A stretch of DNA of 64,000 nt from Sphingorhabdus sp. 109 (GTDB lineage: Bacteria; Pseudomonadota; Alphaproteobacteria; Sphingomonadales; Sphingomonadaceae): the NCBI RefSeq assembly GCF_902506555.1, contig NZ_LR732707.1:2441290-2505289 (forward strand), in the 5' to 3' direction. The position numbers and the translations under genes are program-made. Shown here in pieces: positions 15,286-62,889 of this stretch. The notes beneath the pieces are model-generated. The model had not been told where the DNA came from, searched no databases, and worked only from the letters and a program-made list of their open reading frames with translations. Within the stretch, counting starts at the first letter, position 1; every line of letters begins with the position of its first letter.

Positions 15286-15351
15286 ATTGATTCTGCGTGC
15301 CGCACGGATCGTGAAGCACCGGTTTTATTGCCACGATTGAAGAGGTTTGAG

Positions 15352-17733: not shown

Positions 17734-17747
17734 TTGAGGAGCATTTC

Positions 17748-25006: not shown

Positions 25007-25019
25007 TAAAGGATAGTAT

Positions 25020-27077
25020 ATGGGTTATCGTTTGGGCGTTGATGTAGGCGGAACATTTACCGATCTATTGTTGTTTGATGTCGAAAGTGGCGCTTTCTGG
25101 CGGCATAAAACGCCGTCCACTCCGCACGACAGTTCCGAAGGTATTCTGACCGGCGTGACCGCGATATGTGCAAAGGCGGAAGTCGATGCCCGGGAAATTG
25201 AATATTTCCTGCATGGCACCACGGTCGCCACCAATGCCGTTCTTGAAGGCAAGGGCGCGAAAGTCGGGCTGATCACCTCAGAGGGCTATCGCGACATCAT
25301 GCAAATTGCCCGCAGTCTGGTGCCGGGCGGCCTGGCCGCATGGATCGTGTGGCCCAAGCCGCAACCGCTGGCCGCACTCGAAAACACGGTCACGGTCGAT
25401 GGCCGCATGGACGCTCGCGGTCAGGAGCTGCGGCCGCTCAGCGAGACAAGCATCACAAGCGCGCTCACGACGCTCAAGCAACAAGGCGTCGAAGCGGTTA
25501 CGGTGTCGCTGGTCAATGCCTATACCAATGGCTTGCACGAAAAGCGGATCGGAGAAATGGTGCAGGATTTCCTGCCCGGCATTCCGGTGTCGCTCAGCCA
25601 CGAAGTCCTGCCTGAAATGCAGGAATATGAACGCACCTTGACGACCGTTGCCAACGCGGCGGTAAGGCCCGTCGTCAGCCGCTATATCTCGAGTTTGCGT
25701 ACCAAGCTCGCAGACCAAGGTCTGGACGGAAATCTGTCCTTGTTGCGATCCGACGGCGGTTTGATGTCATCCCAGAAGGCCGAGGAACATCCCGTCGACA
25801 TTCTGATGTCCGGACCCGCAGGCGGCGTCACCGGAGCGATCTGGGTGGGCCGCAATGCCGGGCTGCAGAATATTCTGACGCTTGATGTCGGAGGCACATC
25901 AACCGACGTCGCGCTGATCGAGAATCTCGAACCGCGGCGGGTGCGAACCACCGATGTCGGCCATTTGTCCGTACGGGCATCCTCCCTCGATGTAAAAACC
26001 GTCGGGGCCGGCGGTGGCTCCATTGCCTATGTGCCGGAACTGACCAAGGCGCTCCGGGTCGGGCCACAGTCGGCCGGAGCGGTACCTGGCCCCGTGGCTT
26101 ACGGCAAAGGCGGTGAAGAACCGACCGTGACGGATGCCAATGTGGTATTGGGATATCTTCCGGAAAATCTGCTCGGCGGCAGCTTCAAGCTTGATCGCGA
26201 AGGCGCGACCAAATCGGTACAGAAAATTGCCGATGCTCTGGGCATCGGGTTGATGGAAGCGGCCCGCGGCATCATCGATATCGTGAATGAAAATATGTTC
26301 GGCGCGTTGCGCATGATCTCGGTCCAGCAAGGATATGATCCACGGCATTTCGCGCTCATGGGCTTTGGCGGCGCAGGACCATTGCACGTCAATGCCGTTG
26401 CAAAGCTGACTGGCAGCTGGCCCGCAGTGTCTCCGATGTCGCCCGGCGTATTGTGCGCTCTCGGCGATGCCACGACCCGGATGCGGACGGAAACCGCGCG
26501 ATCATTTTCAAAATTTGCGTCTGAAACCGAAACCAGCGAACTCATTGACCTGCTGTCGGAAATGGCGACGCAAACCCGCGCCGAACTGCTCAGTGACGGA
26601 GTGGACGACGCCGATATCAGCAGCGAATTCGAGATTGATGTCCGCTATGCCGGACAAGCGTTCGAAGTATCCTTGACCATAACGCCCGAAATGCTCGAAC
26701 AGGGTGGGATACAGGGCATATTGGATCGCTTTGACGAGGAGCATAACCGCCTTTTCACGTTCAACATGGATTCGCCGCACGAAATTGTGAATTTGCGTGC
26801 CGTTGCGCTTGGCCGTTCACTCGATCTGCCTTCCTCCACGCTACCGAAAGGCAATGGCGACCCGTCTGCGGCGAAAATACGCGATCACAAATTGTGGATG
26901 GATGGCAAGGAGCAGGATGGTGTGATCTACGACCGCTCCAAACTGGCGCAGGGAGATATAATTCCCGGCCCTGCCATTGTCGTCGAAATGGACTCCACGA
27001 CGCTCATCGAATCCGATTGCGTAGCAACGGTCGACGCCGTCGGGAATATTCTGATTAATCCGGCGGAAGGGGAATAA
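25020..27077 (+). CDS. Hydantoinase A/oxoprolinase family subunit
   Basis: A 685-residue HyuA-type subunit with the actin-like ATP-binding motifs of the family: GVDVGGTFTD (residues 6-15), HGTTVATNAV and LDVGGTSTDVAL. HyuA/HyuB pairs use ATP to open lactam or hydantoin rings (oxoproline, N-methylhydantoin, caprolactam), or, in acetone/acetophenone carboxylases, to carboxylate ketones. Length matches the N-methylhydantoinase A class. The HyuB gene begins one base after the stop, so the two are coupled. The flanking HMG-CoA-lyase-type and CoA-transferase genes could fit either lactam opening or ketone carboxylation followed by CoA activation. Confidence 0.9.
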   Translation: MGYRLGVDVGGTFTDLLLFDVESGAFWRHKTPSTPHDSSEGILTGVTAICAKAEVDAREIEYFLHGTTVATNAVLEGKGAKVGLITSEGYRDIMQIARSLVPGGLAAWIVWPKPQPLAALENTVTVDGRMDARGQELRPLSETSITSALTTLKQQGVEAVTVSLVNAYTNGLHEKRIGEMVQDFLPGIPVSLSHEVLPEMQEYERTLTTVANAAVRPVVSRYISSLRTKLADQGLDGNLSLLRSDGGLMSSQKAEEHPVDILMSGPAGGVTGAIWVGRNAGLQNILTLDVGGTSTDVALIENLEPRRVRTTDVGHLSVRASSLDVKTVGAGGGSIAYVPELTKALRVGPQSAGAVPGPVAYGKGGEEPTVTDANVVLGYLPENLLGGSFKLDREGATKSVQKIADALGIGLMEAARGIIDIVNENMFGALRMISVQQGYDPRHFALMGFGGAGPLHVNAVAKLTGSWPAVSPMSPGVLCALGDATTRMRTETARSFSKFASETETSELIDLLSEMATQTRAELLSDGVDDADISSEFEIDVRYAGQAFEVSLTITPEMLEQGGIQGILDRFDEEHNRLFTFNMDSPHEIVNLRAVALGRSLDLPSSTLPKGNGDPSAAKIRDHKLWMDGKEQDGVIYDRSKLAQGDIIPGPAIVVEMDSTTLIESDCVATVDAVGNILINPAEGE

Positions 27078-27078
27078 A

Positions 27079-28953
27079 ATGCCTGCAACGATCATTGAAA
27101 CAAACAATACCCCATTTGCCAAAAAAGATATCGATCCGGTCACCCTCGATATCATCGAGAATGCCCTGCGCAACGCCCGTATCGAGATGGACGCAACACT
27201 GGTGCGCACGGCAATGTCACCGGGGATACGGGAACAGGGCGATGCGTTCCCGCTGATCGCAGACCATAACGGCAAGATGATCGTCGGCCAGTTCGGCAGC
27301 TTTATCGACGGTTTCCTGCGGCAGTTTGATGGCACGCTGGAAGACGGCGACATGGTTCTGCTTTCAGACCCCTATAGTTGTGAAGGCGCGGTCAGCCATA
27401 ATAATGACTGGCTGGTGCTGCTTCCTGTTTTCAAAGAAGGTCGCCTGATCGCCTATACCGCGATGTTCGGACATCAATCCGATATCGGCGGCAAGGTCGT
27501 CGGCTCCATGCCGATCAACGCCAAGTCTGTTTTTGAAGAAGGCGTCCGTATCCCACCCGTCAAAATCTGGCGGAAAGGCGAGTATAATGATGATCTGATG
27601 AAACTGGTCATGCACCAGACTCGCATGCCTGATTGGTGCCAGGCGGATCTGAACGCCATCGTGGCCTCTTGCCGCGTGGCAGCCCGGCGCGTCATCGAGA
27701 TGACGGAACGTTTCGGCGACGATATTTACATCAGCGCCACCCAAGAACTGCTGGCCCGCAATCATCGCGCGATGAAACAGTTGATCGGAATGGCGATTGG
27801 CGAGGAGAAGGTCAGCTTCGAAGATTATATCTGCGATGACGGCATGGGCTACGGTCCCTACAAGATCAAATGCACGATGTGGCGCGACGGCGAAAAGGTG
27901 ATCCTCGATTTCGATGGTACAGACCCGCAAAGCCAGGCCTCGATAAACTTCTTGCTCAATGAAAATATGTTCAAGATGTTCTTCGGCATCTACATGATCA
28001 TGGTCTTTGATCCGCAAATCCTGTTCAATGACGGATTCTACGACCTGATTGAAGTCCGCATCCCCGAAGGTTCATTGCTGAAACCGAAATTCCCCGCGGC
28101 CCTCTCCGGGCGCACGCATGCTCTGGGACGTATTTTTGACATATTGGGTGGTCTCCTGGGCCAGAAGACGCCGGAGTTCCTGAACGGAGCGGGATTCAGC
28201 TCTTCTCCCCATCTCTTTTATTCCGGCTATGACAAGGAAGGAGAATGGTTCCAGCTCTTCCAGATCGGCTTTGGCGGCATACCCGGCAGACCGCTGGGCG
28301 ACGGCCCCGATGGCCACTCCCTCTGGCCCGGATTTACCAACGTTCCGAACGAGTTTCTCGAACGCTATTTCCCGCTTGTGATCGAACGCTATGAAACGGC
28401 GGCCGATAGCGGCGGCGCGGGCTTGCACCGTGGCGGCAACGGTATCCACATGACCTACCGTTTCCTGAGTGAGGGAACGATATCGATCCATGACGATCGC
28501 TGGTTCGTACCGCCATGGGGTGTCAATGGCGGCCGTCCGGGCAAACGCGCCCGCAAGATATTGGAAAAGGCCGACGGCACCCGGGAAATTGTCGGCAACA
28601 AGGTCGAGGAGTTCCACGTAGACGAAAACGACCAGCTGCACTTCATCACCTGGGGCGGAGGCGGCTGGGGCGACCCCCTCGAACGCGATCCGGAACTGAT
28701 CGGCAAGGAGATTGTTCAGGGGCTGGTGACCGTCAGCGGCGCGCTTGAATATGGTGTGGTCGTCGACGAGCAGGGTATCGTCGATGTAGATGCAACCGAG
28801 AAACTCCGCGCATCGATCAGGGCGGAACGTCCGGATCTTCCGACCTTCGATTTCGGACCGGATATCGAAACACTCCGGGCAAATTGTGAAGAGGAAACCG
28901 GACTGCCGGCACCGATCCAGCCAGTCTGGCAGACTATGAAAGAAGCGAAATGA
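27079..28953 (+). CDS. Hydantoinase B/oxoprolinase family subunit
   Basis: A 624-residue HyuB-type catalytic subunit. Family landmarks include DPVTLDIIENALRNARIEMDATLVRTAMSP at the N terminus, DMVLLSDPY, a GHQSDIGG segment that supplies metal ligands, and the C-terminal GGGGWGDPLERDPE. It is the partner of the preceding gene and overlaps the CoA transferase start by ATGA. The product should act in the cytoplasm as an A/B complex. The substrate is not evident from sequence; sequence-based families in this group are often misannotated between hydantoin, oxoproline and ketone carboxylation activities. Confidence 0.9.
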   Translation: MPATIIETNNTPFAKKDIDPVTLDIIENALRNARIEMDATLVRTAMSPGIREQGDAFPLIADHNGKMIVGQFGSFIDGFLRQFDGTLEDGDMVLLSDPYSCEGAVSHNNDWLVLLPVFKEGRLIAYTAMFGHQSDIGGKVVGSMPINAKSVFEEGVRIPPVKIWRKGEYNDDLMKLVMHQTRMPDWCQADLNAIVASCRVAARRVIEMTERFGDDIYISATQELLARNHRAMKQLIGMAIGEEKVSFEDYICDDGMGYGPYKIKCTMWRDGEKVILDFDGTDPQSQASINFLLNENMFKMFFGIYMIMVFDPQILFNDGFYDLIEVRIPEGSLLKPKFPAALSGRTHALGRIFDILGGLLGQKTPEFLNGAGFSSSPHLFYSGYDKEGEWFQLFQIGFGGIPGRPLGDGPDGHSLWPGFTNVPNEFLERYFPLVIERYETAADSGGAGLHRGGNGIHMTYRFLSEGTISIHDDRWFVPPWGVNGGRPGKRARKILEKADGTREIVGNKVEEFHVDENDQLHFITWGGGGWGDPLERDPELIGKEIVQGLVTVSGALEYGVVVDEQGIVDVDATEKLRASIRAERPDLPTFDFGPDIETLRANCEEETGLPAPIQPVWQTMKEAK

Positions 28954-30161
28954 CTGAGGAAAACACAGGCGCATTGAAAGATATCCGCGTTATCGAAATG
29001 GGGCAACTGATCGCCGGACCGTTTTGCGGCCAGCTGTTGGGCGATATGGGTGCGGAAGTCATCAAGGTCGAACCACCCGTGGTTGACGGCAAGGGCGGCG
29101 GCGATCCCATGCGCAACTGGGGTCGCGGTGACGACAAGCTCTGGTGGGAAGTAGTCTCACGAAACAAAAAGGCGGTGTCAGCCAATCTTCGCGTTCCGGA
29201 AGGACAGGAACTCGTTCGCAAGCTTGCCGCCACCGCTGACATCCTGATCGAAAATTTCAAACCGGGCACCATGGAGAAATGGGGCCTGGGTCCGGATGTC
29301 CTGCACGAAATTAACCCGCGCCTGATCATTGTAAGGGTTTCCGGATATGGGCAGACAGGGCCCTATTCCTCCCGCGCAGGCTTTGGCGGAATCGGCGAAG
29401 CCATGGGCGGATGGCGCTATATCGTCGGCGATCCGGATCGTGCGCCGAGCCGGATGGGCATCTCCATTGGTGATACGATGGCCGCCAGCTACGGCTGCAT
29501 GGGCGCGCTTGCAGCGCTGCATTCGCGCGAAACCACCGGCAAGGGCCAGGTCGTGGATAGCGCCCTTTACGAGGCCGTACTGCAGGTCATGGAAAGCGTC
29601 GTGCCCGAATACGACTATTCCGGCTATATCCGTGAACGCTCCGGTTCGGTATTGCCCGGCATAGCCCCGTCAAACGTCTATAAATGCGCGGATGGGGAAT
29701 ATCTGATCGGCGCTAATCAGGACGCGGTATTTGCCAGGCTCTGCAAGGCCATGGAACGGCCCGAACTGGCGTCAGATCCACGATATGTCAACCATGTGGC
29801 GCGTGGCACCAATCAGATCGAGCTGGACGAACTCATCGAAGCATGGACCCGAACGCTCACAGTTGACGAACTGGAAGCCCTGATGATCGAACATTCCATT
29901 CCCGCGGGGAAAATGTATCGCGCACCGGAAATGATGGACGACCCCCATTTCGCCGCACGGGAAGCGATTATCGAACTGGAAACGCCTCGCTGGGGCCCAC
30001 TGAAAATGCAGAATGCTTTTCCCAAATTATCAGGCACCCCAAGCGCGGTACGCACCCCGGCTCCCGATCGCATCGGGCAGCATAATGCGGAAATCTACGG
30101 CCAGTTGCCGGACATCGACGAGCAGGAGCTGGACCGGTTGGCGGCGCAAGGCGTAATCTAG
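28950..30161 (+). CDS. CaiB/BaiF family CoA transferase
   Basis: A 403-residue class III CoA transferase. It shows the family start VIEMGQLIAGPFCGQLLGDMGAEVIKVE, the VSGYGQTGPYSSRAG segment and the catalytic aspartate region (GISIGDTMAASYG, about D173). These enzymes move CoA between carboxylates. As the last gene of the operon it would activate the acid formed by HyuAB, giving an acyl-CoA that the HMG-CoA-lyase-type protein might cleave. Start overlaps HyuB by 4 bases. A GC-rich hairpin follows the stop. Confidence 0.9.
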   Translation: MTEENTGALKDIRVIEMGQLIAGPFCGQLLGDMGAEVIKVEPPVVDGKGGGDPMRNWGRGDDKLWWEVVSRNKKAVSANLRVPEGQELVRKLAATADILIENFKPGTMEKWGLGPDVLHEINPRLIIVRVSGYGQTGPYSSRAGFGGIGEAMGGWRYIVGDPDRAPSRMGISIGDTMAASYGCMGALAALHSRETTGKGQVVDSALYEAVLQVMESVVPEYDYSGYIRERSGSVLPGIAPSNVYKCADGEYLIGANQDAVFARLCKAMERPELASDPRYVNHVARGTNQIELDELIEAWTRTLTVDELEALMIEHSIPAGKMYRAPEMMDDPHFAAREAIIELETPRWGPLKMQNAFPKLSGTPSAVRTPAPDRIGQHNAEIYGQLPDIDEQELDRLAAQGVI

Positions 30162-30386: not shown

Positions 30387-31901
30387 TCATACCACCGCGC
30401 AAACGGTTTTCAGTTCGAGATAATTTGCGAGCGCCGCCTGGCCGCTATCACGGCCGAAACCGGATTGTTTGGTACCGCCGATAGGCAGCGCAGCATCGAA
30501 CATCAAATGGCTGTTGATCCAGACAGTACCGGCCTGCAGGCGATTGGCGAGCCGCGTCGCATTGGACAAGCCCTCGGTCCAGATGCCGGCAGCCAGCCCG
30601 AAGCTGCTGTCATTGGCAGCGGCCAGCACTTCATCGACGTCGTCAAAAGGCGACGCGACCAGAACCGGACCGAATATTTCCTCGCACACCACATTCATGT
30701 CGGCCTTGACATCGGTAAGAACCGTTGGCTGCACAAAGCTTTGATTCGGGCCCAGAGTTTCGCCGCCGCATAATCTGGTCGCTCCAGCCTTGATGCCATC
30801 TTCGATATAGCCGGCCACGGTCGCCGCATGTTTTCTCGACACCAAGGGGCCTAGCTGTGTGGCCGGATTGAGGCCATGTCCCATCGCCATTTTGCCGGCA
30901 GTATCGACAATGCCCTCGATGACCTTGTCAAAAACCGACCTGTGCGCATAAAGGCGCGACCCGGCAACACAGACCTGTCCGCCATTGAAAAAGATCGCAT
31001 TGGCAGAGCCGGCAGCCGCCGCTGCAATATCTGCGTCCGCCATAACAATGACCGGAGATTTTCCACCCAGTTCCAAGGTAACCCGTTTGAGATTGCCTTT
31101 CGAGGCTTCCAATATGGCCCGCCCGGTGTTTGTCGAACCGGTAAATGCGATTTTGTTAACTTGTGGATGCTCGGCCAAGCGGGCACCTGCTTCACTACCC
31201 AGTCCGGTCACCAGATTGATCACGCCGTCCGGCAATCCCGCTTCCGCTATCAATTCGCACAATCGGACAGCGGTCAGGGACGTGTCTTCTGCCGGCTTCA
31301 GCACGATTGTGCAGCCTGCCGCCAAGGCCGGCGCCAGTTTCATCACCGTCAATACTAGTGGACTGTTCCAAGGGACAATTGCGCCGACCACGCCCACAGG
31401 TTCTTTCAAGGTATAAGCAAATATCTCTTTGCCTTCAGGCTGATAATTGATCGAAGTCGGAATGGTCCTTCCTTCAATCGCCAGCGCAAGACCGGCAAAA
31501 TATCTGAATTGCGCAATGGCACCGGGAATTTCGGCCCAGCGCCCGACATATAATGGTTTTCCCTGGTCGAGGGTCTCCAGTTCCGCCAGCTCGTCTATAT
31601 TGGATTCCATAAGATCCGCGATCTTGTTCAAGATCCCGGATCGCTCCATTGGCGTCATTGTCCGCCAGGGACCGCTGTCAAAAGCCCTTCGCGCTGCGGA
31701 AACGGCCAGGTCGACATCTTCGGCCGCCGCCCGGGCGATCTGACCGATCACCGCACCGGTAGCCGGATCACGAGTATCGAATGTTCCGGACGATTGCGCA
31801 TCAACCCATTGTCCATCGAGGAAAAGCTGATATTTTCCACGATCAACAAAGGCCTGCGCAGCTGAGGATAGCGCGGGAGCGCCAATATCTATCTCGGCCA
31901 T
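30387..31901 (-). CDS. NAD(P)-dependent aldehyde dehydrogenase
   Basis: A 504-residue aldehyde dehydrogenase oxidising an aldehyde to a carboxylate. The catalytic glutamate lies in LELGGKSP and the nucleophilic cysteine in NGGQVCVAGSR; FTGSTNTG supplies the cofactor loop, and EEIFGPV is the usual C-terminal motif. It is the betaine/phenylacetaldehyde-dehydrogenase size class. The start overlaps the upstream PuuE-like gene by one base (TAATG), indicating coupling. The aldehyde may derive from the cyclic-amide substrate of that neighbour (inference). Confidence 0.92.
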   Translation of the reverse strand: MAEIDIGAPALSSAAQAFVDRGKYQLFLDGQWVDAQSSGTFDTRDPATGAVIGQIARAAAEDVDLAVSAARRAFDSGPWRTMTPMERSGILNKIADLMESNIDELAELETLDQGKPLYVGRWAEIPGAIAQFRYFAGLALAIEGRTIPTSINYQPEGKEIFAYTLKEPVGVVGAIVPWNSPLVLTVMKLAPALAAGCTIVLKPAEDTSLTAVRLCELIAEAGLPDGVINLVTGLGSEAGARLAEHPQVNKIAFTGSTNTGRAILEASKGNLKRVTLELGGKSPVIVMADADIAAAAAGSANAIFFNGGQVCVAGSRLYAHRSVFDKVIEGIVDTAGKMAMGHGLNPATQLGPLVSRKHAATVAGYIEDGIKAGATRLCGGETLGPNQSFVQPTVLTDVKADMNVVCEEIFGPVLVASPFDDVDEVLAAANDSSFGLAAGIWTEGLSNATRLANRLQAGTVWINSHLMFDAALPIGGTKQSGFGRDSGQAALANYLELKTVCAVV

Positions 31902-32833
31902 TATTTCAATCCTCCGCCGGTCAATTGACCCGGGATATGATCCCCCTGATGTTCGACATAATAGTCAGCGATTTCTTCGCGTGTTGCCCACCAGATGCCA
32001 TCGAGCTCCTTGGCGAATTCGATAAACTCCCGCACCGCACGAATCGTATGGGCACGACCGGTAACATGGGGATGGAAGCCGACATTCATGATCCGGGCCT
32101 GCTGTTCCCCTTCCCGATGCAAGACCGACAGTTCCTCGATCAGGAGGTCGCGATATTCGTCGGTGGTCCGCATGTTCCGCGTCAATATGGTAAAGTCGTT
32201 GATCACGTTGGAATAAGGGGTGGCAACGATCGGTCCCTGGTCGGTCCGTATCATATAAGGTTGATCGTCGTTCATAATGTCGCAGTAGAATTTGAACCCC
32301 TCTTCCGCGAGAATCGACGGCGTGTTCAGCGTCCCGCGCAGAGAGGATGACAACCAGCCGACCGGTCGCTTGCCAACATGTTTCTCGTAAATCTCGATGG
32401 AGCGCTGGATAATCTCGCGCTCGGCGGCGGGGTCGTCGTGAAAGTCGGTCAGCAACTCGCCCTGCTCATAATTATGTGCGATCAATTCCCAGCCACGTTC
32501 CAGACATGCATCGGTCATCGCCTTGCGTCGTTCGAACGTCACAGCGTTGGTGGTGCAGCTTGCCTTGACGCCCAGCTCATCAAACAGGTCGAACATACGC
32601 CAGATGCCCACTCGCTGACCATATTCGCGCCAGCTATAGTTCGGATAGTCGGGGATGCGACCTGCCAGGGCATTGGGTAGCAACGCCGGACCACCGGCAT
32701 AATATGGGAGATCCGTGTCTTTCGTCAGATCCCAGGTTTCCAGATTGAACGTCAGGATCAATGCGACCTTTGCACCATTGGGCCACTTCAGTTGGCCGCG
32801 CTGCGGCATCGGCACATAATCATATTCAAACAT
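31901..32833 (-). CDS. PuuE/cyclic-imidase-like NodB-fold hydrolase (copy 1)
   Basis: A 310-residue polysaccharide-deacetylase-fold protein of the PuuE allantoinase branch, not a sugar deacetylase. The usual TFDD motif is replaced by FNLE (E32), as in PuuE. One histidine of motif 2 is kept (IAHN, H120), the NDDQPY motif is present (residues 188-193), and GFHPHVTGR supplies the late histidine (H254). Relatives open cyclic ureides or imides (allantoin, succinimide, maleimide). There is no signal peptide. It is the first gene of a two-gene operon with the aldehyde dehydrogenase. Two further members of this family lie at the right end of the window. Confidence 0.82.
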   Translation of the reverse strand: MFEYDYVPMPQRGQLKWPNGAKVALILTFNLETWDLTKDTDLPYYAGGPALLPNALAGRIPDYPNYSWREYGQRVGIWRMFDLFDELGVKASCTTNAVTFERRKAMTDACLERGWELIAHNYEQGELLTDFHDDPAAEREIIQRSIEIYEKHVGKRPVGWLSSSLRGTLNTPSILAEEGFKFYCDIMNDDQPYMIRTDQGPIVATPYSNVINDFTILTRNMRTTDEYRDLLIEELSVLHREGEQQARIMNVGFHPHVTGRAHTIRAVREFIEFAKELDGIWWATREEIADYYVEHQGDHIPGQLTGGGLK

Positions 32834-33078
32834 CGGGTTGTGCTCCTTGATATTGACGTTCCCAGCTTAGTGCCACCAACGCCCGATCGAATAAACCGTT
32901 TGTGAACGTGAACGCGGATCGAGCGTACCCAAGAACCGGCTGCTAATCGACAGGCGAATAACGACGCTGTCGACAGCACCCGGTTGAATGATCCAGCCTC
33001 TACCGGGCCTGATCTGCGGCCAGCTTGAGCCCGGGGCGCCGCCTGCTGGCGCATCTCGTCCGTCGGCTGGCTATAGCG

Positions 33079-34693: not shown

Positions 34694-35374
34694 ATGACAC
34701 TGATTGGCACAAAAATGGTTGAGGACGGCCGGACGGCTCGTGAAATTTTCGAACAGCTTATCAGTAATCCGGCACGTAACAAATTTGGATTCGGCGACAA
34801 GCTGGCCATCGTCAATGTAGATGTACAACAGGCCTATACCCGCACCGACATGTTCAAGACCGCTTATGAAACGGATCCGCATCAAATCGACTATATCAAT
34901 CGCATATCTTCCCTCGCCCGGTCGCACGAAATGCCGGTAATCTGGAGCCGCGTAGCCTATAAGGAAGATGCTGCTGATGCCGGTGTCTGGGGGACCCGGA
35001 CCGATACGGAAGATTCCCTTCAGAACATAAAATATGACAGCGAGCGGCATAAACTGGACCCCCGCTGCGAGGTCGCGCCGAATGACCTCCAATATACAAA
35101 ACGCATGCCCAGCGCCTTCTTCGAAACCTCTTTGGCAAGTTATCTGACCTGGCACAAAGTCGATACAGTCGTGGTCACCGGCGGCTCCACGTCCGGCTGT
35201 GTACGCGCGACGGCGGTTGATGCATTAAGCCATGGCTACCGCACCATCGTCCCGATCGAAACCTGCGCTGACAAGCACGAGAGTTATCATTTTGCCAATC
35301 TGACGGATCTGCAGATCAAATATGCCGATGTCGAACCGGTGCAGACCGTAATCGACTGGCTGGAAGCGCAATAG
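34694..35374 (+). CDS. Isochorismatase-family amidohydrolase (copy 1)
   Basis: A 226-residue cysteine hydrolase. The expected triad is visible: D43 (VNVDVQQ), K136 (YTKRMPSAF) and nucleophile C169 in GGSTSGCVRATAVDA. The SGCVRAT context matches N-carbamoylsarcosine and maleamate amidohydrolases more than true isochorismatases. It would release ammonia from a carbamoyl or half-amide group. I used the ATG at 34694 with AAGGA 8 bases upstream; an in-frame start at 34475 gives an unlikely N terminus. The next genes (AMDase-like, second amidase) follow in the same direction after 54 and 124 bases. Confidence 0.87.
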   Translation: MTLIGTKMVEDGRTAREIFEQLISNPARNKFGFGDKLAIVNVDVQQAYTRTDMFKTAYETDPHQIDYINRISSLARSHEMPVIWSRVAYKEDAADAGVWGTRTDTEDSLQNIKYDSERHKLDPRCEVAPNDLQYTKRMPSAFFETSLASYLTWHKVDTVVVTGGSTSGCVRATAVDALSHGYRTIVPIETCADKHESYHFANLTDLQIKYADVEPVQTVIDWLEAQ

Positions 35375-35428
35375 ATAGTTCTGGGGACTGTAAAGTCCGC
35401 TCCCCAGCGATACCAATTGGAGGATATT

Positions 35429-36196
35429 ATGTCTTTGAAACCGCGCCCAAACCCCGACGCCCTCGGCCACAGAAAACTGTTCGGCGTGCTCGGCCCCTCG
35501 ACCAATACCGTGGTGCAGCCTGACTTCGACGATATGCGCGTATATGGCGTCACCAACCATTATAGCAGGATCGTGGTCGAGGACGCGCAAGCGATCTCCG
35601 ACGAAACCTTCATGGCGGGGACGCTTGAGATATCGAACAATACGCTCGACGCCGTACGCGGCGTTCTGACCTGCAACCCCGACTATCTGGTGATGGGCAT
35701 GTCCGCCGTCACATTCTATGGTGGTGCAAGGGGCGCGGAACAATGGCGTGAAAATATCGAAGCCGAGGCCGGTCTTCAACTGTGCACGGGTTCGCAGTCG
35801 TTGATCGAAGCATTTAACGCCTATGGCGGCGTGAAAAAAATTGCTGTGATTTCACCCTATTATCCGTCGGCCAACCGACAGGTTGCAAATTTCATGTCGG
35901 ATTACGGTATTGAAACCGTTCGTGATATTTGTCTGCGTTGCCCGAGCTGGACCTCCATTGCCCAGGTTTCGACAGAAATATTGCGCGAAAAGCTAAAGGA
36001 ACTCGACGGCGATGATGTCGATGCCTTGGTGCAGGTTGGCACCAATCTGTCGATGACCCGGCTTGCCGCGGCTGCAGAGACCTATCTTGGCAAGCCGGTT
36101 ATCGCTATCAACACCGCCACCTACTGGAACGCCTTGCGGCAGAATGAAATTGATGATCGGGTGGTCGGGTTCGGCAGATTGCTCGAGGAATTTTAG
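35429..36196 (+). CDS. Arylmalonate decarboxylase/maleate isomerase-like protein lacking both catalytic cysteines
   Basis: A 255-residue Asp/Glu-racemase-fold protein most like arylmalonate decarboxylase: the segment VMGMSAVTFYGG (88-99) aligns with the oxyanion loop of that enzyme. The first catalytic position is G90-M91, as in the decarboxylase. The second, normally cysteine (Cys188 in the Bordetella enzyme, Cys194 in maleate isomerase), falls at VQVGTNLS with V203 where Cys is expected. Racemases and isomerases of this fold need two cysteines and the decarboxylase one, so another chemistry or a binding role is implied. It sits between two half-amidase-like genes. GGAGG precedes the ATG. 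Confidence 0.75.
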   Translation: MSLKPRPNPDALGHRKLFGVLGPSTNTVVQPDFDDMRVYGVTNHYSRIVVEDAQAISDETFMAGTLEISNNTLDAVRGVLTCNPDYLVMGMSAVTFYGGARGAEQWRENIEAEAGLQLCTGSQSLIEAFNAYGGVKKIAVISPYYPSANRQVANFMSDYGIETVRDICLRCPSWTSIAQVSTEILREKLKELDGDDVDALVQVGTNLSMTRLAAAAETYLGKPVIAINTATYWNALRQNEIDDRVVGFGRLLEEF

Positions 36197-36320
36197 CAGC
36201 AGGAAACAAAAGGCCCAGAGGTCTGACATTTTGATCATGTCGGCATATCTGCAAAAAAATGGATGCACGCTGGATGCATCGGGTGAAGATAAGGCCGGGC
36301 GCGATTTTCAGGAGGCTTGA

Positions 36321-36944
36321 ATGAGTGAATTGGAAGACAATTATCAAACGGCAGGCTTTTGCGGCAAGCTGGAACTTGGCAACCGTCCGGCCCTGGTGCT
36401 GATCGATCTGGCCCGCGCCTACATCGACTCCGCATCGCCGCTTTATCTGGGTGACGAAAGCGCGTTTCTTGCCAATATTGAACTGACCAAGGCCGCCCGC
36501 GACGCTGGCATTCCTGTTATTTTCACCCGTGTGGAATATATGCCCGGCGGCGGCGATGGCGGTCTGTTCTACAAGAAAGTCGCGGCGCTGTCCCTGTTCC
36601 AGAAAGGTGAACCGATGGCAGAATTTGATCCGCGGCTGCAACCCGAAGCAGGGGATGTCATTGTCACCAAGCAGTATCCCAGCGCCTTTTTCGGGACATC
36701 TCTGGCCGCCACATTAACCGCCATGGGTGTGGACAGTTGCATCGTTTCCGGCTTCTCGACCTCAGGCTGTGTCCGCGCCAGCGCACTGGATGCATTGCAG
36801 AATGGCTTCGTTCCAATAGTCGTCAGCGAAGCTTGCGGAGACCGCGATCCTGCTGTTCAAAAAGCCAATCTGTTCGATATCGGCGCAAAATATGCCGAGA
36901 TTCTGTCTCTTGATGACGCAAAAGGCTATTTATCCTCAATCTGA
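36321..36944 (+). CDS. Isochorismatase-family amidohydrolase (copy 2)
   Basis: A 207-residue paralogue of the amidase gene 1 kb upstream. Triad residues are D29 (LVLIDLARAY), K117 (VTKQYPSAFFGT) and C150 (STSGCVRASALDA). Shared YPSAFF/MPSAFF and SGCVRA segments place both in the maleamate/N-carbamoylsarcosine amidase group. A strong AGGAGG site lies 7 bases before the ATG. Its 3' end overlaps the converging IclR gene by 19 bases. Two such enzymes around one racemase-fold gene suggest sequential or stereospecific amide cleavage. Confidence 0.87.
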   Translation: MSELEDNYQTAGFCGKLELGNRPALVLIDLARAYIDSASPLYLGDESAFLANIELTKAARDAGIPVIFTRVEYMPGGGDGGLFYKKVAALSLFQKGEPMAEFDPRLQPEAGDVIVTKQYPSAFFGTSLAATLTAMGVDSCIVSGFSTSGCVRASALDALQNGFVPIVVSEACGDRDPAVQKANLFDIGAKYAEILSLDDAKGYLSSI

Positions 36945-56984: not shown

Positions 56985-58196
56985 TCATCCTATCACACCC
57001 TGCTTACGCAACGCCCTGACATCCGCTTCACCGTAGCCGAGATATTGCTGCAGGACGGTGTCGGTATGCGCGCCCAGCGAAGGTGGCGGCTCGACAGGTT
57101 GTCCGGCAAAGGGCACCGGTTGTCCGACCGTGCGAAGCCCGCGACCATGATCGATGAGCTGCGATCGCGCCTGCGTCTGGGTCGATTGCAGAGCATCACC
57201 GACCGAACGAATGGGACTATGGGGGATGCCCGCGCCATCGAATCTGTCTTCCCACTCTTCTGTCGACCGGGTCTTGAGGACCGGAATAATCTCTGCGAGC
57301 AGATTGTCGCGATCTTCAACCCGCCCCCGGTTGGTCTGCCACCGAACGGTCTGGCAAAGGTCAGGACGGCCCAGAGCCTGGCAGAAAGAATGAAACTGCT
57401 GATCATTGCCTACGGCAACAACAATATGACCGTTTGCCGTGTCAAAAACCTGATAGGGTACGATGCTGGGATGCGCGTTGCCCAACCGTTTTGGGGAGTC
57501 ACCGGTGGCAAGAAAATTCATCGCCTGATTGGCTAGTGTTGCCAGCTGACAGTCATGAAGAGCGACGTCCAGATGGGAACCGCTGCCAGTAGCTTCCGCT
57601 TTGCGCAACGCCGCTAGGATTGCGGTCGCGGCGTAGAGGCCGGTAAAAAGATCGGATACCGCCACCCCTACCTTCATAGGTTCATCGCCGGGACTGCCAG
57701 CTGGCTGACCGGTGATCGACATCAGGCCAGTCATCGCCTGTATAAGATAGTCATAGCCGGGCCGGTGACTATTCGGTCCAGTCTGCCCAAAACCGGTGAT
57801 CGAACAGTAGATTATCCGGGGATGCTCGGCGGAAACCGTCTCGTAGTCCAGTCCATATTTCGCGAGCCCGCCGACCTTGTAATTCTCGACTACGATATCG
57901 CACTGGCCAAGCAGCTTGCGGATCAGGCCGGCGCCCTCGGATGAGGCGATATTTATGGCGGCGGATTTCTTGTTGCGATTTGCCGTATGGAAATATGCGG
58001 CCTCGCCATCAACCGCGTATGGCGGCCCCCAGGAACGGGTATCGTCGCCCGAACCTGGCCGCTCCACCTTGATAACGTCTGCGCCATAATCAGCGAGCAA
58101 TTGTGTCGACCACGGACCCGCGAGAATCCTGGTCAGGTCCAGAACCTTCACACCGGCCAGAGGAAGTGACGCCGAATCATTCATGCGCTTGGTCAT
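56985..58196 (-). CDS. CaiB/BaiF family CoA transferase (second copy)
   Basis: A 403-residue class III CoA transferase. It shows VLDLTRILAGPWSTQLLADYGADVIKVERP, ITGFGQTGPNSHRPGYD and the catalytic aspartate segment GVAVSDLFTGLY (about D187). It diverges from the hydratase/lyase operon across 215 bases that hold an 18-base palindrome, so the two transcripts are probably co-regulated. Its acyl substrate may be a carboxylate released by the lyase, or succinate-type donor exchange; both are guesses. Confidence 0.9.
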   Translation of the reverse strand: MTKRMNDSASLPLAGVKVLDLTRILAGPWSTQLLADYGADVIKVERPGSGDDTRSWGPPYAVDGEAAYFHTANRNKKSAAINIASSEGAGLIRKLLGQCDIVVENYKVGGLAKYGLDYETVSAEHPRIIYCSITGFGQTGPNSHRPGYDYLIQAMTGLMSITGQPAGSPGDEPMKVGVAVSDLFTGLYAATAILAALRKAEATGSGSHLDVALHDCQLATLANQAMNFLATGDSPKRLGNAHPSIVPYQVFDTANGHIVVAVGNDQQFHSFCQALGRPDLCQTVRWQTNRGRVEDRDNLLAEIIPVLKTRSTEEWEDRFDGAGIPHSPIRSVGDALQSTQTQARSQLIDHGRGLRTVGQPVPFAGQPVEPPPSLGAHTDTVLQQYLGYGEADVRALRKQGVIG

Positions 58197-58411: not shown

Positions 58412-59692
58412 ATGGCACAAACGCTGACACAGAAAATCATCGCCCGCGCATGTGGCCGCCCTTCGGTCAGCCCGGGCGAAATCGTGACGGTGAAAGTTGA
58501 CCTGCTAATGGGGCAAGACGCATCCGGTCCCCGGCGCTGGCGACCGCGGCTGGAGGAGCTTGGTGCCAAACTCTGGGATCCTTCAAAAGTCGTCGTGGTC
58601 TCAGACCATTATGTTCCGGCGGTCGATGCCCAATCGGCCGAAATACTCAGTATTTCCCGGCGCTTTGCACGGGACTATGGAGTGCAGAACTTCTTCGATA
58701 TGCAGGGCATCTCACACGCCATCATGCCCGAGCGCGGACTGCTGCGCCCTGGCATGTTCGTCGCGGGTGGTGACAGTCATACGCCCACCGCCGGTGCTTA
58801 CGGCTGCTATGCCGCCGGCTTCGGAGCAACCGACACAACAGCGATCGCGATAACCGGAGAAACCTGGACCACGGTACCCGAAACCATCAAGGTGCAGATA
58901 GACGGGGAGCTGGGCCCCGATATCACAGCCAAGGACGTCATGCTGTGGCTTTGCCGTGAAATGGGTATGGAAAACAGCTTCAAGTCGGTCGAATTCACAG
59001 GCTCGACGGTACGTGCAATGTCCATGTCGGAGCGGCTTGTCATGTCCAACATGGCTGCGGAGCTGGGTGCAGAAGCAGGTATTATCGCCGTCGACGACAT
59101 AACCATAGACGCTTTGAAATCGACCGGCGGAGATTATGAAGGTGCGGAAGCCTGGGTTGCAGATCCTGATGCCCGATATTGCGAGACCGTAACACTGGAC
59201 GCGAGCAGGCTTGGCCCACAGGTAGCAGCTCCCCATGCACCGGAGAACACGGATGACGTCGGAAAATTCGGCACGGTCAAAGTCGATCAATGCTATATCG
59301 GAGCCTGTGTCGGCGCCAAACTGGAGGACCTTCAGATGGCTGCCTCGATCTTGCGCGGTCAACGGGTGGCCCCCGATACGCGCCTGCTGGTCGCTCCTGC
59401 AACCGTCCGCGTGACGGAAAAAGCGGCGGCAGACGGAACGCTGGCGACGCTGACCGCCGCCGGCGCCATTTTACTACCATCGGGCTGCGGAGCCTGTGCT
59501 GGCATGGGGGCCGGAATCATTTCTGAAGGGGAAGTCTGCCTCTCCACCACCAATCGCAATTTCCAGGGGCGGATGGGCCACAAGGATGCCTCGGTATATC
59601 TCGCTTCGCCTTATACCGTCGCGGCATCGGCGGTGACCGGGCAGATAACCGATCCACGCGAATTACGCGCCAGCACAAGGAGCGCAGCATGA
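58412..59692 (+). CDS. Aconitase-type hydratase large subunit (isopropylmalate/dimethylmaleate/maleate hydratase-like)
   Basis: A 426-residue large subunit of a two-subunit aconitase-family hydro-lyase. The 4Fe-4S cysteines are C299 (YIGACVG), C359 and C362 (SGCGACAG), and the active-site GGDSHTPTAGAYG segment spans 119-131. Length and two-subunit form match LeuC/HACN-type enzymes, which include isopropylmalate isomerase, maleate hydratase and dimethylmaleate hydratase. I chose ATG 58412, with TGAGGA 6 bases upstream. Operon partners (small subunit, methylisocitrate/dimethylmalate lyase-type enzyme, cyclic amidases) speak against leucine biosynthesis and for hydration of a substituted maleate. 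Confidence 0.85.
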   Translation: MAQTLTQKIIARACGRPSVSPGEIVTVKVDLLMGQDASGPRRWRPRLEELGAKLWDPSKVVVVSDHYVPAVDAQSAEILSISRRFARDYGVQNFFDMQGISHAIMPERGLLRPGMFVAGGDSHTPTAGAYGCYAAGFGATDTTAIAITGETWTTVPETIKVQIDGELGPDITAKDVMLWLCREMGMENSFKSVEFTGSTVRAMSMSERLVMSNMAAELGAEAGIIAVDDITIDALKSTGGDYEGAEAWVADPDARYCETVTLDASRLGPQVAAPHAPENTDDVGKFGTVKVDQCYIGACVGAKLEDLQMAASILRGQRVAPDTRLLVAPATVRVTEKAAADGTLATLTAAGAILLPSGCGACAGMGAGIISEGEVCLSTTNRNFQGRMGHKDASVYLASPYTVAASAVTGQITDPRELRASTRSAA

Positions 59693-60177
59693 TCATCGCA
59701 GGGCGCGCCTGGGTTTTCGGCGACAAGATCGACACGGATGTACTGGCACCTGGCTATGCCATGAAATTGCCCCCCGAGGGACTGGCCCAGCACTGTCTGG
59801 AAGCCGTTGATCCCAATTTCGCGAAATCGGTACAGCCGGGAGACATCGTCGTAGCCGGTGCCAATTTCGGCCTCGGGTCCAGCCGCGAACAAGCGGCTAT
59901 TTCACTTGCAACCTTGGGCGTTGGCGCCGTGCTGGCAAAATCCTTTGCGCGGATATTTTACCGCAATGCGATCAATATCGGCCTGCCGGTTGTAACCATC
60001 GACCTGACGCAGGAAATTGCTGCGGGAGATCTGCTGAAACTTAACCTGGCGGCGGGCTCCATGACCCGCCTGAAAGATGGCTATCATCGAGATTTACAAC
60101 CGATGCCACCGCATATCATCGATATTCTCGAAGCTGGCGGCCTGATGGCGCAACTGAAACGGAAGAGAGGCCTCTAG
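59689..60177 (+). CDS. Aconitase-type hydratase small subunit
   Basis: A 162-residue swivel-domain subunit with the family motifs GDKIDTDVLAPG (near residue 11) and GANFGLGSSREQA (57-69), which provide substrate-binding residues. The length is that of LeuD/HACN small subunits. It overlaps the large subunit by ATGA and abuts the lyase gene. Together with the large subunit it should form the hydratase; specificity is set by a loop that I cannot interpret without alignment. Confidence 0.88.
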   Translation: MIIAGRAWVFGDKIDTDVLAPGYAMKLPPEGLAQHCLEAVDPNFAKSVQPGDIVVAGANFGLGSSREQAAISLATLGVGAVLAKSFARIFYRNAINIGLPVVTIDLTQEIAAGDLLKLNLAAGSMTRLKDGYHRDLQPMPPHIIDILEAGGLMAQLKRKRGL

Positions 60178-61068
60178 ATGGCTCTGATGCAGGCACTGCA
60201 AGGACCGGACGGGGTGATCGCCCCGGGTGTCTATGACGCGCTGACGGCGCTTCTGGCCGAGCAGGCCGGGTTCAGCGCCGCTTATATATCGGGTGCGTCA
60301 GTGTCCTACACGCTCCTCGGACGACCGGATCTCGGCTTTGTCTCTCTCTCGCAGCTGGCCGAAGCCGTCGAGCGCATGCGCCAGCGGGTCACAATCGACC
60401 TGATCGTCGATGCGGACACCGGTTTTGGCAACGCGCTGAATGTCATCCATACAACCCGGATGCTAGAGCGGGCCGGGGCCAGTGCCATCCAGCTCGAAGA
60501 TCAGAAAATGCCGAAACGATGCGGCCATCTAGGTGGCAAACAGCTGGTGACCGCAGCTGAAATGGTCGGCAAGGTGAAAGCCGCAACGGATGCCCGCACC
60601 AGCGAAGACACGCTGATAATCGCCCGCACCGATGGCATCGCTGTCGAGGGACTAAATGCCGCACTGGATCGGGCCATGGCTTACAAGGAGGCTGGCGCGG
60701 ACATATTGTTTGTCGAGGCCCCGCAATCCGCCGAGGATATGACCCTGATCGTGAAAACTTTTGATGGCACCATCCCGCTACTGGCAAATATGGTCGATGG
60801 CGGCGACCCCGCCGTGCATAACGCGTCGGCTTTGCACAAGGCAGGTTATTCTCTGGTCATCACGGCCGGCAGCCTGACCCGGGCGATGGCCTTTGCCGCC
60901 GACCAGCTGTTACATCAACTACGCAAAGCCGGAACCACCGCTGCCTGCAGCGAGAAGATGTTCAGCTTCGCCGGTCTCAACCAACGCATCGGCCTTCCCG
61001 AAATGCTCGCACGCAGCGTATCTTACGCGTCGGACGCAGTCGAAATTCAGGATCAGGAGAACAAATGA
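60178..61068 (+). CDS. Isocitrate lyase/PEP mutase family lyase (2,3-dimethylmalate or 2-methylisocitrate lyase-like)
   Basis: A 296-residue lyase of the ICL/PEPM superfamily. Metal-binding DADTGFG (78-84), EDQ (107-109) and the catalytic PKRCGH (C115) are intact, which marks C-C lyases of the methylisocitrate/dimethylmalate type rather than PEP mutases. It would split a 2-hydroxy dicarboxylate to a 2-oxo acid and a carboxylate. The gene directly follows the small subunit stop, and its own end overlaps the first PuuE-like gene by ATGA. The three-gene order hydratase large, small, lyase parallels the last steps of clostridial nicotinate fermentation. Confidence 0.85.
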   Translation: MALMQALQGPDGVIAPGVYDALTALLAEQAGFSAAYISGASVSYTLLGRPDLGFVSLSQLAEAVERMRQRVTIDLIVDADTGFGNALNVIHTTRMLERAGASAIQLEDQKMPKRCGHLGGKQLVTAAEMVGKVKAATDARTSEDTLIIARTDGIAVEGLNAALDRAMAYKEAGADILFVEAPQSAEDMTLIVKTFDGTIPLLANMVDGGDPAVHNASALHKAGYSLVITAGSLTRAMAFAADQLLHQLRKAGTTAACSEKMFSFAGLNQRIGLPEMLARSVSYASDAVEIQDQENK

Positions 61069-61985
61069 AAGACCCTCAAATATACGGCTACTGGCCCTAT
61101 CGCGATCGCCCCAGAATAAAATGGCCCGGCGATAAAAAATTGGCATTCTGGGTTGCGCCCAATATCGAATATTACGAGCTGCACCCGCCAAAAAATCCGC
61201 ACCGCAGTCCCTGGGCCAGACCGAACCCGGACATCGTCAACTATGCCTATCGGGATCATGGCAATCGGGTAGGAAACTGGCGTCTGATCGAGGCGATGGA
61301 AAAATATAGCATCCCCGGTACGGTGAGCCTGTCGGTGGCGATGTGCGATCATTTCCCCGAAATGATTGATACGGTAAATAACTTGGGATGGGAGTTCTTT
61401 TCCCACGGCGTTTACAATACCCGATACGCCTATGGCATGGATCGGGCGCAGGAACGCCAGATGCTCCAGTATACCGTCGACCGGATCAAGGCACAGACCG
61501 GCCAGCAGACGCGCGGCTATCTCGCGCCAGCGCTCACGCATACGGTTCACACGATCGAACTGTTGGCGGAACTGGGTTTCAACTATTCCTGCGACCTGTT
61601 CCAGGATGACCAGCCACAACCGCTGAATGTACCGGGCAACCCGCTTGTCTCGATGCCCTATTCGCTGGAAGTGAACGACCATTATGCCTTCAACGTATTC
61701 GGCCTGTCGCCACAACAATATACCGATGTGCTGAAACGACAGTTTGACACGTTGCTGGAAGAAGGCGGCACGTCTGGCACGGTAATGTGCATCCCGATCC
61801 ACGCCTATCTGGTTGGCCGGTCACACCGCATCAGCCCGTTTGAAGAAATCCTCCGCTACGCTGACGAACATAAGGATGACATCTGGATAACAAGGGCCGG
61901 TGATATCGCCGACCATTATCTGGCCAATCATTATGATGACGCCCGCACCCATATTGCCCAGTTTGGAGGTTCAGATGCCACTTGA
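61065..61985 (+). CDS. PuuE/cyclic-imidase-like NodB-fold hydrolase (copy 2)
   Basis: A 306-residue PuuE-branch protein. The usual NodB TFDD is NIE (E35), motif-2 histidine H114 (FSHG), QDDQP (180-184) and late histidine H246 (IPIHAYLVGRS) are all present, so it should be catalytically competent. Likely chemistry is opening of a cyclic imide or ureide. The gene is coupled upstream to the lyase gene (ATGA) and overlaps the next PuuE-like gene by 11 bases. No signal peptide. Confidence 0.82.
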   Translation: MKDPQIYGYWPYRDRPRIKWPGDKKLAFWVAPNIEYYELHPPKNPHRSPWARPNPDIVNYAYRDHGNRVGNWRLIEAMEKYSIPGTVSLSVAMCDHFPEMIDTVNNLGWEFFSHGVYNTRYAYGMDRAQERQMLQYTVDRIKAQTGQQTRGYLAPALTHTVHTIELLAELGFNYSCDLFQDDQPQPLNVPGNPLVSMPYSLEVNDHYAFNVFGLSPQQYTDVLKRQFDTLLEEGGTSGTVMCIPIHAYLVGRSHRISPFEEILRYADEHKDDIWITRAGDIADHYLANHYDDARTHIAQFGGSDAT

Positions 61986-62889
61986 TCCCAATTTCCTGCG
62001 TTACCCCATGCTTCGCAAAGGGATGGACCATGACCTCTATCCGGCAGCCAATATGTTCGAGCAGCCCGGAATCGCATGGCCCGACAGCAAACCGATAGCG
62101 CTCATGGTCACCGTAGCTGTCGAATTCTTTCCGCTGACCCCCAATGACGGTCCGTTCAGAGCGGCCGGGCATATGGCGACGCCTTTTCCTGATTTGCGGA
62201 CGTTCACCGCGCGCGACTACGGCAACCGGGTCGCGATATACCGGATAATGGATGCTCTGGCGGCCGCCGATATCGCCGCGACAGCGTTCGTCAGCAGCGC
62301 GCTGATCGACCGCACGCCGCAGCTTGTCCAGGATATCCGGACAGCTGGCTGGGAAATCGCGGCGCATGGCAAAGACATGAACTCCATACATTATGGTGAC
62401 ATGCCGCTGGATCTCGAACAGCACCAGATTGAGTCCTGTCTGGCGGCCTGGTCCGACTATGGTGTCACTCCGAAAGGCTGGATGTCTCCGGGCCGGGGAC
62501 AGAGCGAAGACACGCTTGGCCTGCTCAAACGTGCCGGCATTGAATGGACCGCAGACTGGGGCAATGACGATATGCCCTATGCGATGAACGATGGTCCGGT
62601 TGCCATGCCCTATACCGATGAGATGGAAGACCGGAAATGCATCACCATACTCGGCCAGAATGAAGAGGTGTGGTCCCGGCAGGTTGTGGGAGCGGCTGAT
62701 CTTCTGGCAAAAGAAGCCCAGTCCTACGGCGGCCGTATTTTGCATCTGGCTCTGACACCCTATATAATCGGACAGCCGTTCCGGATCAAATTCTTGCGGG
62801 ATCTACTAGCTGAATTGGCTGGGCGTGACGATATCTGGTCGGCGACCGCATCGGAAATCCATGGGTGCTGGCAGGGCCAGACTGCCTGA
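61975..62889 (+). CDS. PuuE-like NodB-fold protein lacking the late histidine (copy 3)
   Basis: A 304-residue PuuE-branch paralogue. It retains E50 (VTVAVE), H131 (AAHGKD) and NDDMPY (197-202), but the position of the late histidine reads LTPYIIGQP (T261). Start ATG 61975 follows GGAGG by 5 bases and overlaps the preceding gene, so the two subunits are made together. A heteromer with an active and a modified subunit, or a different substrate, is plausible. It ends the operon; the next gene is on the other strand. Confidence 0.8.
   Translation: MPLDPNFLRYPMLRKGMDHDLYPAANMFEQPGIAWPDSKPIALMVTVAVEFFPLTPNDGPFRAAGHMATPFPDLRTFTARDYGNRVAIYRIMDALAAADIAATAFVSSALIDRTPQLVQDIRTAGWEIAAHGKDMNSIHYGDMPLDLEQHQIESCLAAWSDYGVTPKGWMSPGRGQSEDTLGLLKRAGIEWTADWGNDDMPYAMNDGPVAMPYTDEMEDRKCITILGQNEEVWSRQVVGAADLLAKEAQSYGGRILHLALTPYIIGQPFRIKFLRDLLAELAGRDDIWSATASEIHGCWQGQTA

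Follow-up and report, generated by a model that had tools for sequence, protein, structure and literature searches.

A candidate operon for the catabolism of small unsaturated cyclic imides, with alkylated maleimides as the likeliest substrates, in Sphingorhabdus sp. 109

We analyzed a stretch of 64,000 nucleotides from Sphingorhabdus sp. 109 (contig NZ_LR732707.1, positions 2,441,290 to 2,505,289; hereafter the window), in which five contiguous open reading frames (ORFs) on the forward strand (58412-62889) overlap successively by 4, 0, 4 and 11 nt. From these genes and from their surroundings in other genomes we infer, for reactions and substrate alike, that the operon probably provides most of the enzymes for degrading small unsaturated cyclic imides, of which mono- or dialkylated maleimides are the likeliest. 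PuuE1, probably complexed with a catalytically dead partner (PuuE2), would hydrolyse the imide ring to a half-amide, from which an isochorismatase-family amidase encoded elsewhere in the window would free ammonia to leave a substituted maleate. The iron-sulphur hydratase HydL-HydS would then add water, and the resulting substituted malate would be cleaved to a 2-oxo acid and a carboxylate by a lyase of the isocitrate lyase/phosphoenolpyruvate mutase (ICL/PEPM) type. A CoA-transferase encoded divergently from the operon may activate a diacid product, e.g. glutarate.

The five genes belong to the families that a first, sequence-only reading of this DNA had named, as was borne out by the ORF calls, Pfam and NCBIfam. 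All Pfam matches were above cut-off: Aconitase for HydL (294 bits), Aconitase_C for HydS (69 bits), PEP_mutase for the lyase (146 bits) and Polysacc_deac_1 for the two PuuE proteins (36 and 40 bits). The cut-off of an equivalog (single-function) NCBIfam model was reached by none of the five proteins; the hydratase subunits reach subfamily models. HydL, for which an alternative in-frame ATG start at 58352 is possible, scored 461.9 bits against IPMI_arch (TIGR02086; cut-off 410.15), a subfamily-level model of the large subunit of archaeal-type isopropylmalate isomerase (IPMI) and homoaconitase that does not name the substrate. It also exceeded the cut-offs of two further NCBIfam subfamily models and stayed below that of the LeuC equivalog TIGR00170 (227.9 versus 560.25 bits). 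HydS scored 178.4 bits against the 'LeuD/DmdB family' model TIGR02087 (cut-off 108.95), and its nearest solved sequences are the small subunits of isopropylmalate/citramalate isomerase and of homoaconitase. The cysteines of the GAC and CGAC motifs, which presumably have an iron-sulphur role, are present in HydL, and at the site where LeuC-type proteins show GSCTN it has GACVGAK, a motif that recurs as GAC(V/T)GAK in all 14 close hydratase homologues from other genomes. In a phylogenetic tree HydL is separated from the LeuC of the same genome, lying in a 30-member clade with support 0.999 (the inner nodes vary, some being weak). Elsewhere the genome carries an aconitase-like gene and a separate pair resembling LeuC (476 aa) and LeuD (197 aa), and on this account a housekeeping role of the hydratase in leucine biosynthesis or in the tricarboxylic acid (TCA) cycle was rejected.

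The lyase carries PKRCGH, and all eight commonest forms of the motif, making up 15 of the 24 homologue rows, read PK(K/R)CGH; we take K(K/R)CGH to be the motif of the C-C lyases of the ICL/PEPM superfamily. The best NCBIfam model was prpB (TIGR02317), with 263.4 bits against a cut-off of 354.4, and on this ground a role in the methylcitrate cycle was rejected. One of two further lyase paralogues in the genome (C2:2512052-2512912 and C2:2518828-2519652) may fulfil the PrpB role.

The surroundings of PuuE1 homologues were compared in 86 loci (numbered with the prefix L), consisting of the best 80 of at least 561 PuuE1 relatives, obtained by scanning named genomes with a PuuE1 alignment, and of six picked plasmid loci. 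The counts are of loci and not of independent events: L044 is nearly a duplicate of L039, the Kordiimonas loci L048-L051 resemble one another closely, and all of these were kept in the 86. For the motif-row counts and the hydratase tree L044 was excluded, and the tree took every third locus with a LeuCD-type hydratase. In 26 of the loci, which span less than 20 kb, absences are weak. PuuE2 and the isochorismatase-family amidase were each found in 76 loci, a hydratase of some type in 55, a protein like hydroxymethylglutaryl-CoA lyase (HMGL) in 37, CaiB in 36, an ICL-like lyase in 23 and HyuA homologues in six. The order HydL, HydS, lyase, PuuE1, PuuE2 was intact in nine loci, from Caulobacter, Phenylobacterium and Brevundimonas; L101 keeps it as far as the contig ends, and the contig of L045, from an Altererythrobacter metagenome-assembled genome, opens with the small subunit, the lyase, PuuE1 and PuuE2. 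A check on conservation of the gene order, which had been proposed earlier, thus shows that it is not limited to near relatives and recurs in a bacterial order other than that of the window. As a control, 40 random 20-kb stretches were taken from 12 genomes of the window's family (the 86 loci span more taxa), and none of the queries for PuuE, isochorismatase, lyase, HMGL and CaiB gave a match of at least 100 bits in them; they held one weak hydratase-like match (101 bits) and three matches for queries outside the core set (acyl-CoA synthetase, alcohol dehydrogenase). The five-gene order is more than chance.

A C-C lyase of one of two families was present in 49 of the 55 loci with a hydratase. 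The ICL-like lyase occurred in 14 of the 15 loci with a type-1 (archaeal-type) hydratase versus nine of the 71 without, and the HMGL in 35 of the 39 loci with a LeuCD-type hydratase versus two of the 47 without. The use of two different families of C-C lyases after hydration speaks most strongly for a substituted malate as the hydrated acid, as such a malate is not directly usable in the TCA cycle. The earlier logic of a hydratase followed by a lyase is supported by this, and the claim that the lyase implies an alkylated maleate gains support. An alkylated maleimide is the simplest substrate that requires every step.

Against the allantoinase PuuE model TIGR03212 (cut-off 424.6) PuuE1 scored 123.6 and PuuE2 94.2 bits, and with both so far below the cut-off an identity as allantoinase was rejected. 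Both are predicted to adopt the PuuE/NodB fold: in a Foldseek search of the PDB with their AlphaFold2 models (mean predicted local distance difference test score 82-83), 1z7a was the top match and PuuE (3cl6) ranked third, with template modelling scores of 0.75-0.79. In a joint alignment of PuuE1 and PuuE2, His114 and His246 of PuuE1 were kept in 87 of 87 rows, the latter of which should, judged from its position, correspond to His247 of HpPgdA, described in PMC3084791 as holding the water at the metal. In PuuE2 the His114 position is a histidine in 55 of 77 rows, and the His246 position is a threonine in 60 and a histidine in one. Given this loss of the catalytic His246 position, PuuE2 is probably a non-catalytic partner. 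We had supposed earlier that the second PuuE protein was the amidase, acting as an active hydrolase on the half-amide. Conservation of the first-motif histidine and of several acidic residues speaks for such activity; with the second catalytic histidine position lost and a distinct amidase family accompanying PuuE1 in 76 of the 86 loci, we withdraw the claim and consider an active PuuE2 improbable.

The half-amide amidase is instead probably the isochorismatase-family enzyme encoded outside the five genes, for which the start at 34694 was chosen (a longer ORF start exists). This protein is 76% identical to a Sphingomonas JE1 protein that adjoins PuuE1, and its solved relatives include N-carbamoylsarcosine amidohydrolases. 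Its residues Asp36, Lys129 and Cys162, which we take to be catalytic, were each kept in at least 95% of 76 family rows.

We also surveyed the system starting from the hydratase. Among 190 genomes of the window's class a hydratase match at 1e-60 was found in 24 (PuuE1 at the same threshold in 19), of which the 15 with matches below 1e-140, including the genome itself, were followed. Of the other nine, only G141 (L187) was examined, and it carries PuuE1, PuuE2, the amidase, a lyase at 39% and a diverged hydratase. In five of the 14 other genomes an isochorismatase, PuuE1 and PuuE2 were found near the hydratase, and in six HyuB, HyuA and another isochorismatase-family protein; the two contexts are intermingled within one hydratase clade of the tree. 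L183 and L177 have a common frame of a GntR-type regulator, LIV-type ABC transporter genes, HydL, HydS and the lyase, in which the next slot (L183 versus L177) holds isochorismatase-PuuE1-PuuE2 or HyuB-HyuA-isochorismatase, followed by a like FAD oxidoreductase. In Roseomonas a PrpD-family gene lies between the transporter and the lyase, which is followed by HyuB, HyuA, a cysteine hydrolase and an FAD oxidoreductase; the stretch is bordered by a divergent gene annotated leuC, which could mean that PrpD is not the sole hydratase there. In Paraburkholderia the hydratase is followed by HyuB, HyuA and an isochorismatase-family protein, with the lyase at the end. The plasmid records with a hydratase were sampled, four of 13 being examined (L041, L191, L192 and L195). 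In other loci the cleavage would be carried out by CaiB and an HMGL-like enzyme, the ring opening by HyuAB and the hydration perhaps by a PrpD-type protein. This recurrence of the same functions with exchanged parts suggests a conserved chemistry that leads from imide to half-amide, unsaturated diacid, hydroxydiacid and cleavage.

Several observations weigh against a single imide pathway of this kind. In 31 of the 86 PuuE1 loci no hydratase was found within the sequence covered, and the ICL-like lyase occurs in 23 only. The window's amidase lies about 23 kb from the operon, and three of the nine loci with the same gene order (L064, L092 and L105) show no amidase of this family. PuuE2 was not found in six loci where PuuE1 and the amidase are present (L071, L091, L097, L103 (Bacteroidota), L121 and L123), so PuuE2 is not required everywhere. 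No ring-opening gene accompanies the hydratase in three of the 14 loci: the contig breaks off in L176 and L181, and L182 carries HydL-HydS-lyase alone. Of the queried enzymes C. metallidurans CH34 shows HydL-HydS alone, in Cupriavidus EM10 a ring-opening gene is missing beside HydL-HydS-lyase, and Tistrella mobilis pTM1 (L194) has a PrpD-lyase unit with a tautomerase and two proteins of the Asp/Glu racemase family and no imidase. The Tistrella unit sits in the same frame of GntR regulator and LIV transporter, from which it appears that the lyase may serve other inputs too. As to the origin of the substrate, no tetrapyrrole-specific genes were found in the locus or the cassettes.

The main rival is a six-membered glutaconimide such as citrazinate (2,6-dihydroxyisonicotinate), which PuuE would open to cis-aconitamide and the amidase convert to cis-aconitate, after which the hydratase and the ICL-like lyase would act on an acid of the aconitate/isocitrate type, without any alkylmaleimide. 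It would suit the operon lyase, which resembles methylisocitrate lyases, and the hydratase, whose superfamily handles 2-substituted maleates including aconitates. The window furthermore contains a molybdopterin hydroxylase pair; hydroxylases of N-heterocycles are among the enzymes of this kind. The opening of a six-membered imide by the PuuE-related fungal HxnM is described in PMC9304392. However, cis-aconitate enters the TCA cycle directly and the genome has aconitase-like and isocitrate-lyase-like genes, which would make a dedicated hydratase and two lyase families superfluous. Homologues of the molybdopterin hydroxylase (at least 100 bits) were, moreover, found in none of the 86 PuuE1 loci and none of the 15 hydratase loci, and a link to an N-heterocycle hydroxylase was rejected. 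We regard a citrazinate-type substrate as unlikely.

Still less probable is a hydantoin or ureide, of which PuuE1 or HyuAB would open the ring, with the isochorismatase acting on the carbamoyl amide and the hydratase and lyase on the carbon skeleton. PuuE is an allantoinase, HyuAB belong to the hydantoinase/oxoprolinase family and the amidase has N-carbamoylsarcosine amidohydrolases among its solved relatives; by established chemistry, however, hydantoins yield amino acids and not maleate-type acids, so neither a hydratase nor a C-C lyase would be needed, and both PuuE proteins are far under the allantoinase cut-off. It is similarly doubtful that the hydratase-lyase genes and the PuuE pair are independent units that are merely adjacent (e.g. 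a methylcitrate or citramalate module and an allantoinase-like module), as the PuuE1 loci without a hydratase and the nine of 14 other genomes without PuuE1 beside the hydratase might suggest, given that six of these nine carry a substitute ring-opening and amidase set, that the order is intact in nine loci of another bacterial order and that the 40 random stretches show no such clustering. Opening of an alkylated maleimide thus remains our preferred reading, and of the interpretation first given to these genes, the gene families, the passage from hydratase to lyase, the opening of an imide and a substituted maleate as intermediate have stood, and the assignment of PuuE2 as the amidase has not.

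In the nicotinate fermentation of Eubacterium barkeri, dimethylmaleate hydratase (DmdAB) is followed by 2,3-dimethylmalate lyase. The operon is like this arm in having a two-subunit hydratase of the aconitase superfamily and then an ICL/PEPM lyase, with HydS above the LeuD/DmdB cut-off, a likeness by family model only, and unlike it in being linked to imide-opening and amidase genes and in occurring in other bacteria. In the aerobic maleamate route of nicotinate and nicotine degradation (NicF, NicE), an isochorismatase-family amidase acts on the half-amide of maleate, and the maleate is then isomerised to fumarate. An isochorismatase-family amidase for the half-amide of a maleate is common to both, whereas the operon proceeds by a hydratase and a C-C lyase.

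With PuuE allantoinase, the cyclic imide hydrolase of P. putida and HxnM of Aspergillus, PuuE1 has in common the NodB fold and the positions of the catalytic histidines (PMC9304392). Unlike these, the PuuE proteins of the operon are linked to a hydratase and a lyase, come with a diverged partner in most loci and lie far from the allantoinase model. The same source reports that the Aspergillus nicotinate route uses a PuuE-related cyclic imide hydrolase and then an amidase (PMC9304392), a precedent that lends support to the earlier idea that a PuuE relative opens the cyclic imide. (R)-citramalate CoA-transferase (EC 2.8.3.20) and (R)-citramalyl-CoA lyase (EC 4.1.3.46) are a known pair according to PMC8307300, and the branch with a LeuCD-type hydratase, CaiB and HMGL, assigned by family only, fits a route from citraconate via citramalate and citramalyl-CoA to pyruvate and an acyl-CoA (PMC8307300). 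This citramalyl-CoA-like branch sits in two other cassettes of the genome, outside the five genes. The enzyme families are thus known, and so is the sequence of imidase and amidase from the fungal nicotinate route; joining these to a hydratase of the maleate type and to a C-C lyase is apparently undescribed, and searches of open-access papers brought up no description of this gene set.

Table 1. Features of the window with their coordinates and the basis of each assignment
Feature	Position	Strand	Basis or remark
HydL, aconitase-superfamily hydratase large subunit, archaeal-IPMI/DmdA-like type	58412..59692	+	426 aa; Pfam, NCBIfam, motifs
HydS, hydratase small subunit, LeuD/DmdB family	59689..60177	+	162 aa; Pfam, NCBIfam
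ICL/PEPM-superfamily C-C lyase with PKRCGH	60178..61068	+	296 aa; Pfam, NCBIfam, motif
PuuE1, NodB-fold cyclic-imide hydrolase candidate, catalytic subunit	61065..61985	+	306 aa; Pfam, NCBIfam, His conservation, AlphaFold2 model
PuuE2, diverged PuuE paralogue, probable non-catalytic partner	61975..62889	+	304 aa; NCBIfam, His conservation, AlphaFold2, Foldseek
Isochorismatase-family amidase, likely half-amide hydrolase	34694..35374	+	homologue of protein beside PuuE1 elsewhere
CaiB/BaiF CoA-transferase, divergent from operon	56985..58196	-	best NCBIfam model NF052585, 445.5 bits
Arylmalonate decarboxylase/EutA-like protein	35417..36196	+	Pfam Amdase; NCBIfam EutA and arylmalonate decarboxylase below cut-off
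Second isochorismatase-family hydrolase	36321..36944	+	Pfam PF00857
PuuE3, single PuuE-type protein	31901..32833	-	TIGR03212 141 bits, below cut-off; no Pfam match at 0.001
HMG-CoA-lyase-like, HyuA-like, HyuB-like and CaiB-like genes	24062..30161	+	ORFs; HMGL-like Pfam; module associated with imide cassettes at some loci
Molybdopterin hydroxylase large subunit and [2Fe-2S] subunit	15328-18203		

The divergent CoA-transferase remained below the cut-off (750) of the succinate-glutarate CoA-transferase model NF052585, though this was its best family. Its first solved match is an unassigned CaiB/BaiF protein and its second succinate-hydroxymethylglutarate CoA-transferase (335.8 bits), and in L116 a 55% homologue is found within a few kb on the upstream side of the five genes. 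Homologues of PuuE3 (69-73%) were found near the imide cassettes in L066 and L110. The region 30387-36944 of the window forms a catabolic block of an aldehyde dehydrogenase, PuuE3, an FAD monooxygenase, the two isochorismatases and the arylmalonate-decarboxylase-like protein, and parts of it recur near the same two cassettes. A further genomic copy of the module with HMGL-, HyuA-, HyuB- and CaiB-like genes is present at C2:2530971-2537089.

Two more imide cassettes occur in the same genome, at C2:2225918-2233953 (L126/L127) and at C2:2390928-2397677 (L129), with genes for an isochorismatase, PuuE1, PuuE2, a LeuCD-type hydratase, HMGL and CaiB. Proteins resembling RipB and RipC (of the itaconate type, below cut-off) are encoded at about 2212-2214 kb. 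They belong to an island (C2:2199710-2214210) of PrpD-family proteins, an AMP ligase, an amidase-like protein, a single PuuE and the RipB/RipC-like hydratase and lyase, which is perhaps another substituted-diacid route. With these extra CaiB/HMGL-type cassettes and the RipB/RipC-like module, the organism seems specialised in substituted C4 to C5 diacids. A protein of about 400 aa with a methyltransferase domain was observed in all three imide islands (window 44660-45814; L126:10218-11450; L129:7999-9129; L132:8512-9711), and in L126 and L132 it adjoins a protein of about 120 aa (no match, one library tried for each). Near the second cassette, at L129:13602-15587, a reductase of the Old Yellow Enzyme (OYE)/FadH type lies beside a protein of about 102 aa. 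As a tetrapyrrole-specific gene this reductase was rejected, since it scored 223 bits for 'bilirubin reductase, long form' versus 429 for a mycofactocin OYE, both below cut-off.

A tetrapyrrole origin of the alkylmaleimides is a plausible hypothesis. We know of no described bacteria or enzymes that finish off maleimide or hematinic acid fragments, and a search of the open-access literature found no description of bacteria or enzymes that degrade them. Hematinic acid would yield 2-oxoglutarate and propionate, or pyruvate and glutarate, and glutarate as a product would account for the glutarate-type CoA-transferase encoded divergently from the operon. PMC7318184 puts chlorophyll turnover on the scale of 10^12 kg a year and mentions maleimides and hematinic acid in senescent leaves and lake sediments. 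As a tentative extension, in which our confidence is low, there might be a modular pathway, in Pseudomonadota and partly in Bacteroidota, that mineralises alkylmaleimides from chlorophyll and heme (methylvinyl- and ethylmethylmaleimide, hematinic acid), with distinct cassettes in a single genome for the various substituents and a heteromeric imidase made up of an active and a dead subunit.

If the proposed pathway is true, it would provide a complete and testable route for the breakdown of substituted cyclic imides, compounds that tetrapyrroles release and that are also present in chemicals and drugs. It would also assign functions to hundreds of genes (at least 561 PuuE1 relatives), whose products and their partners are presently labelled polysaccharide deacetylase, 3-isopropylmalate dehydratase, hydroxymethylglutaryl-CoA lyase or isochorismatase. 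That enzymes from different families fill one and the same operon slot is also a clear case of a pathway logic that is conserved with non-homologous parts. Should the substrates be fragments of chlorophyll and heme, these operons would show how bacteria complete the breakdown of pigments.

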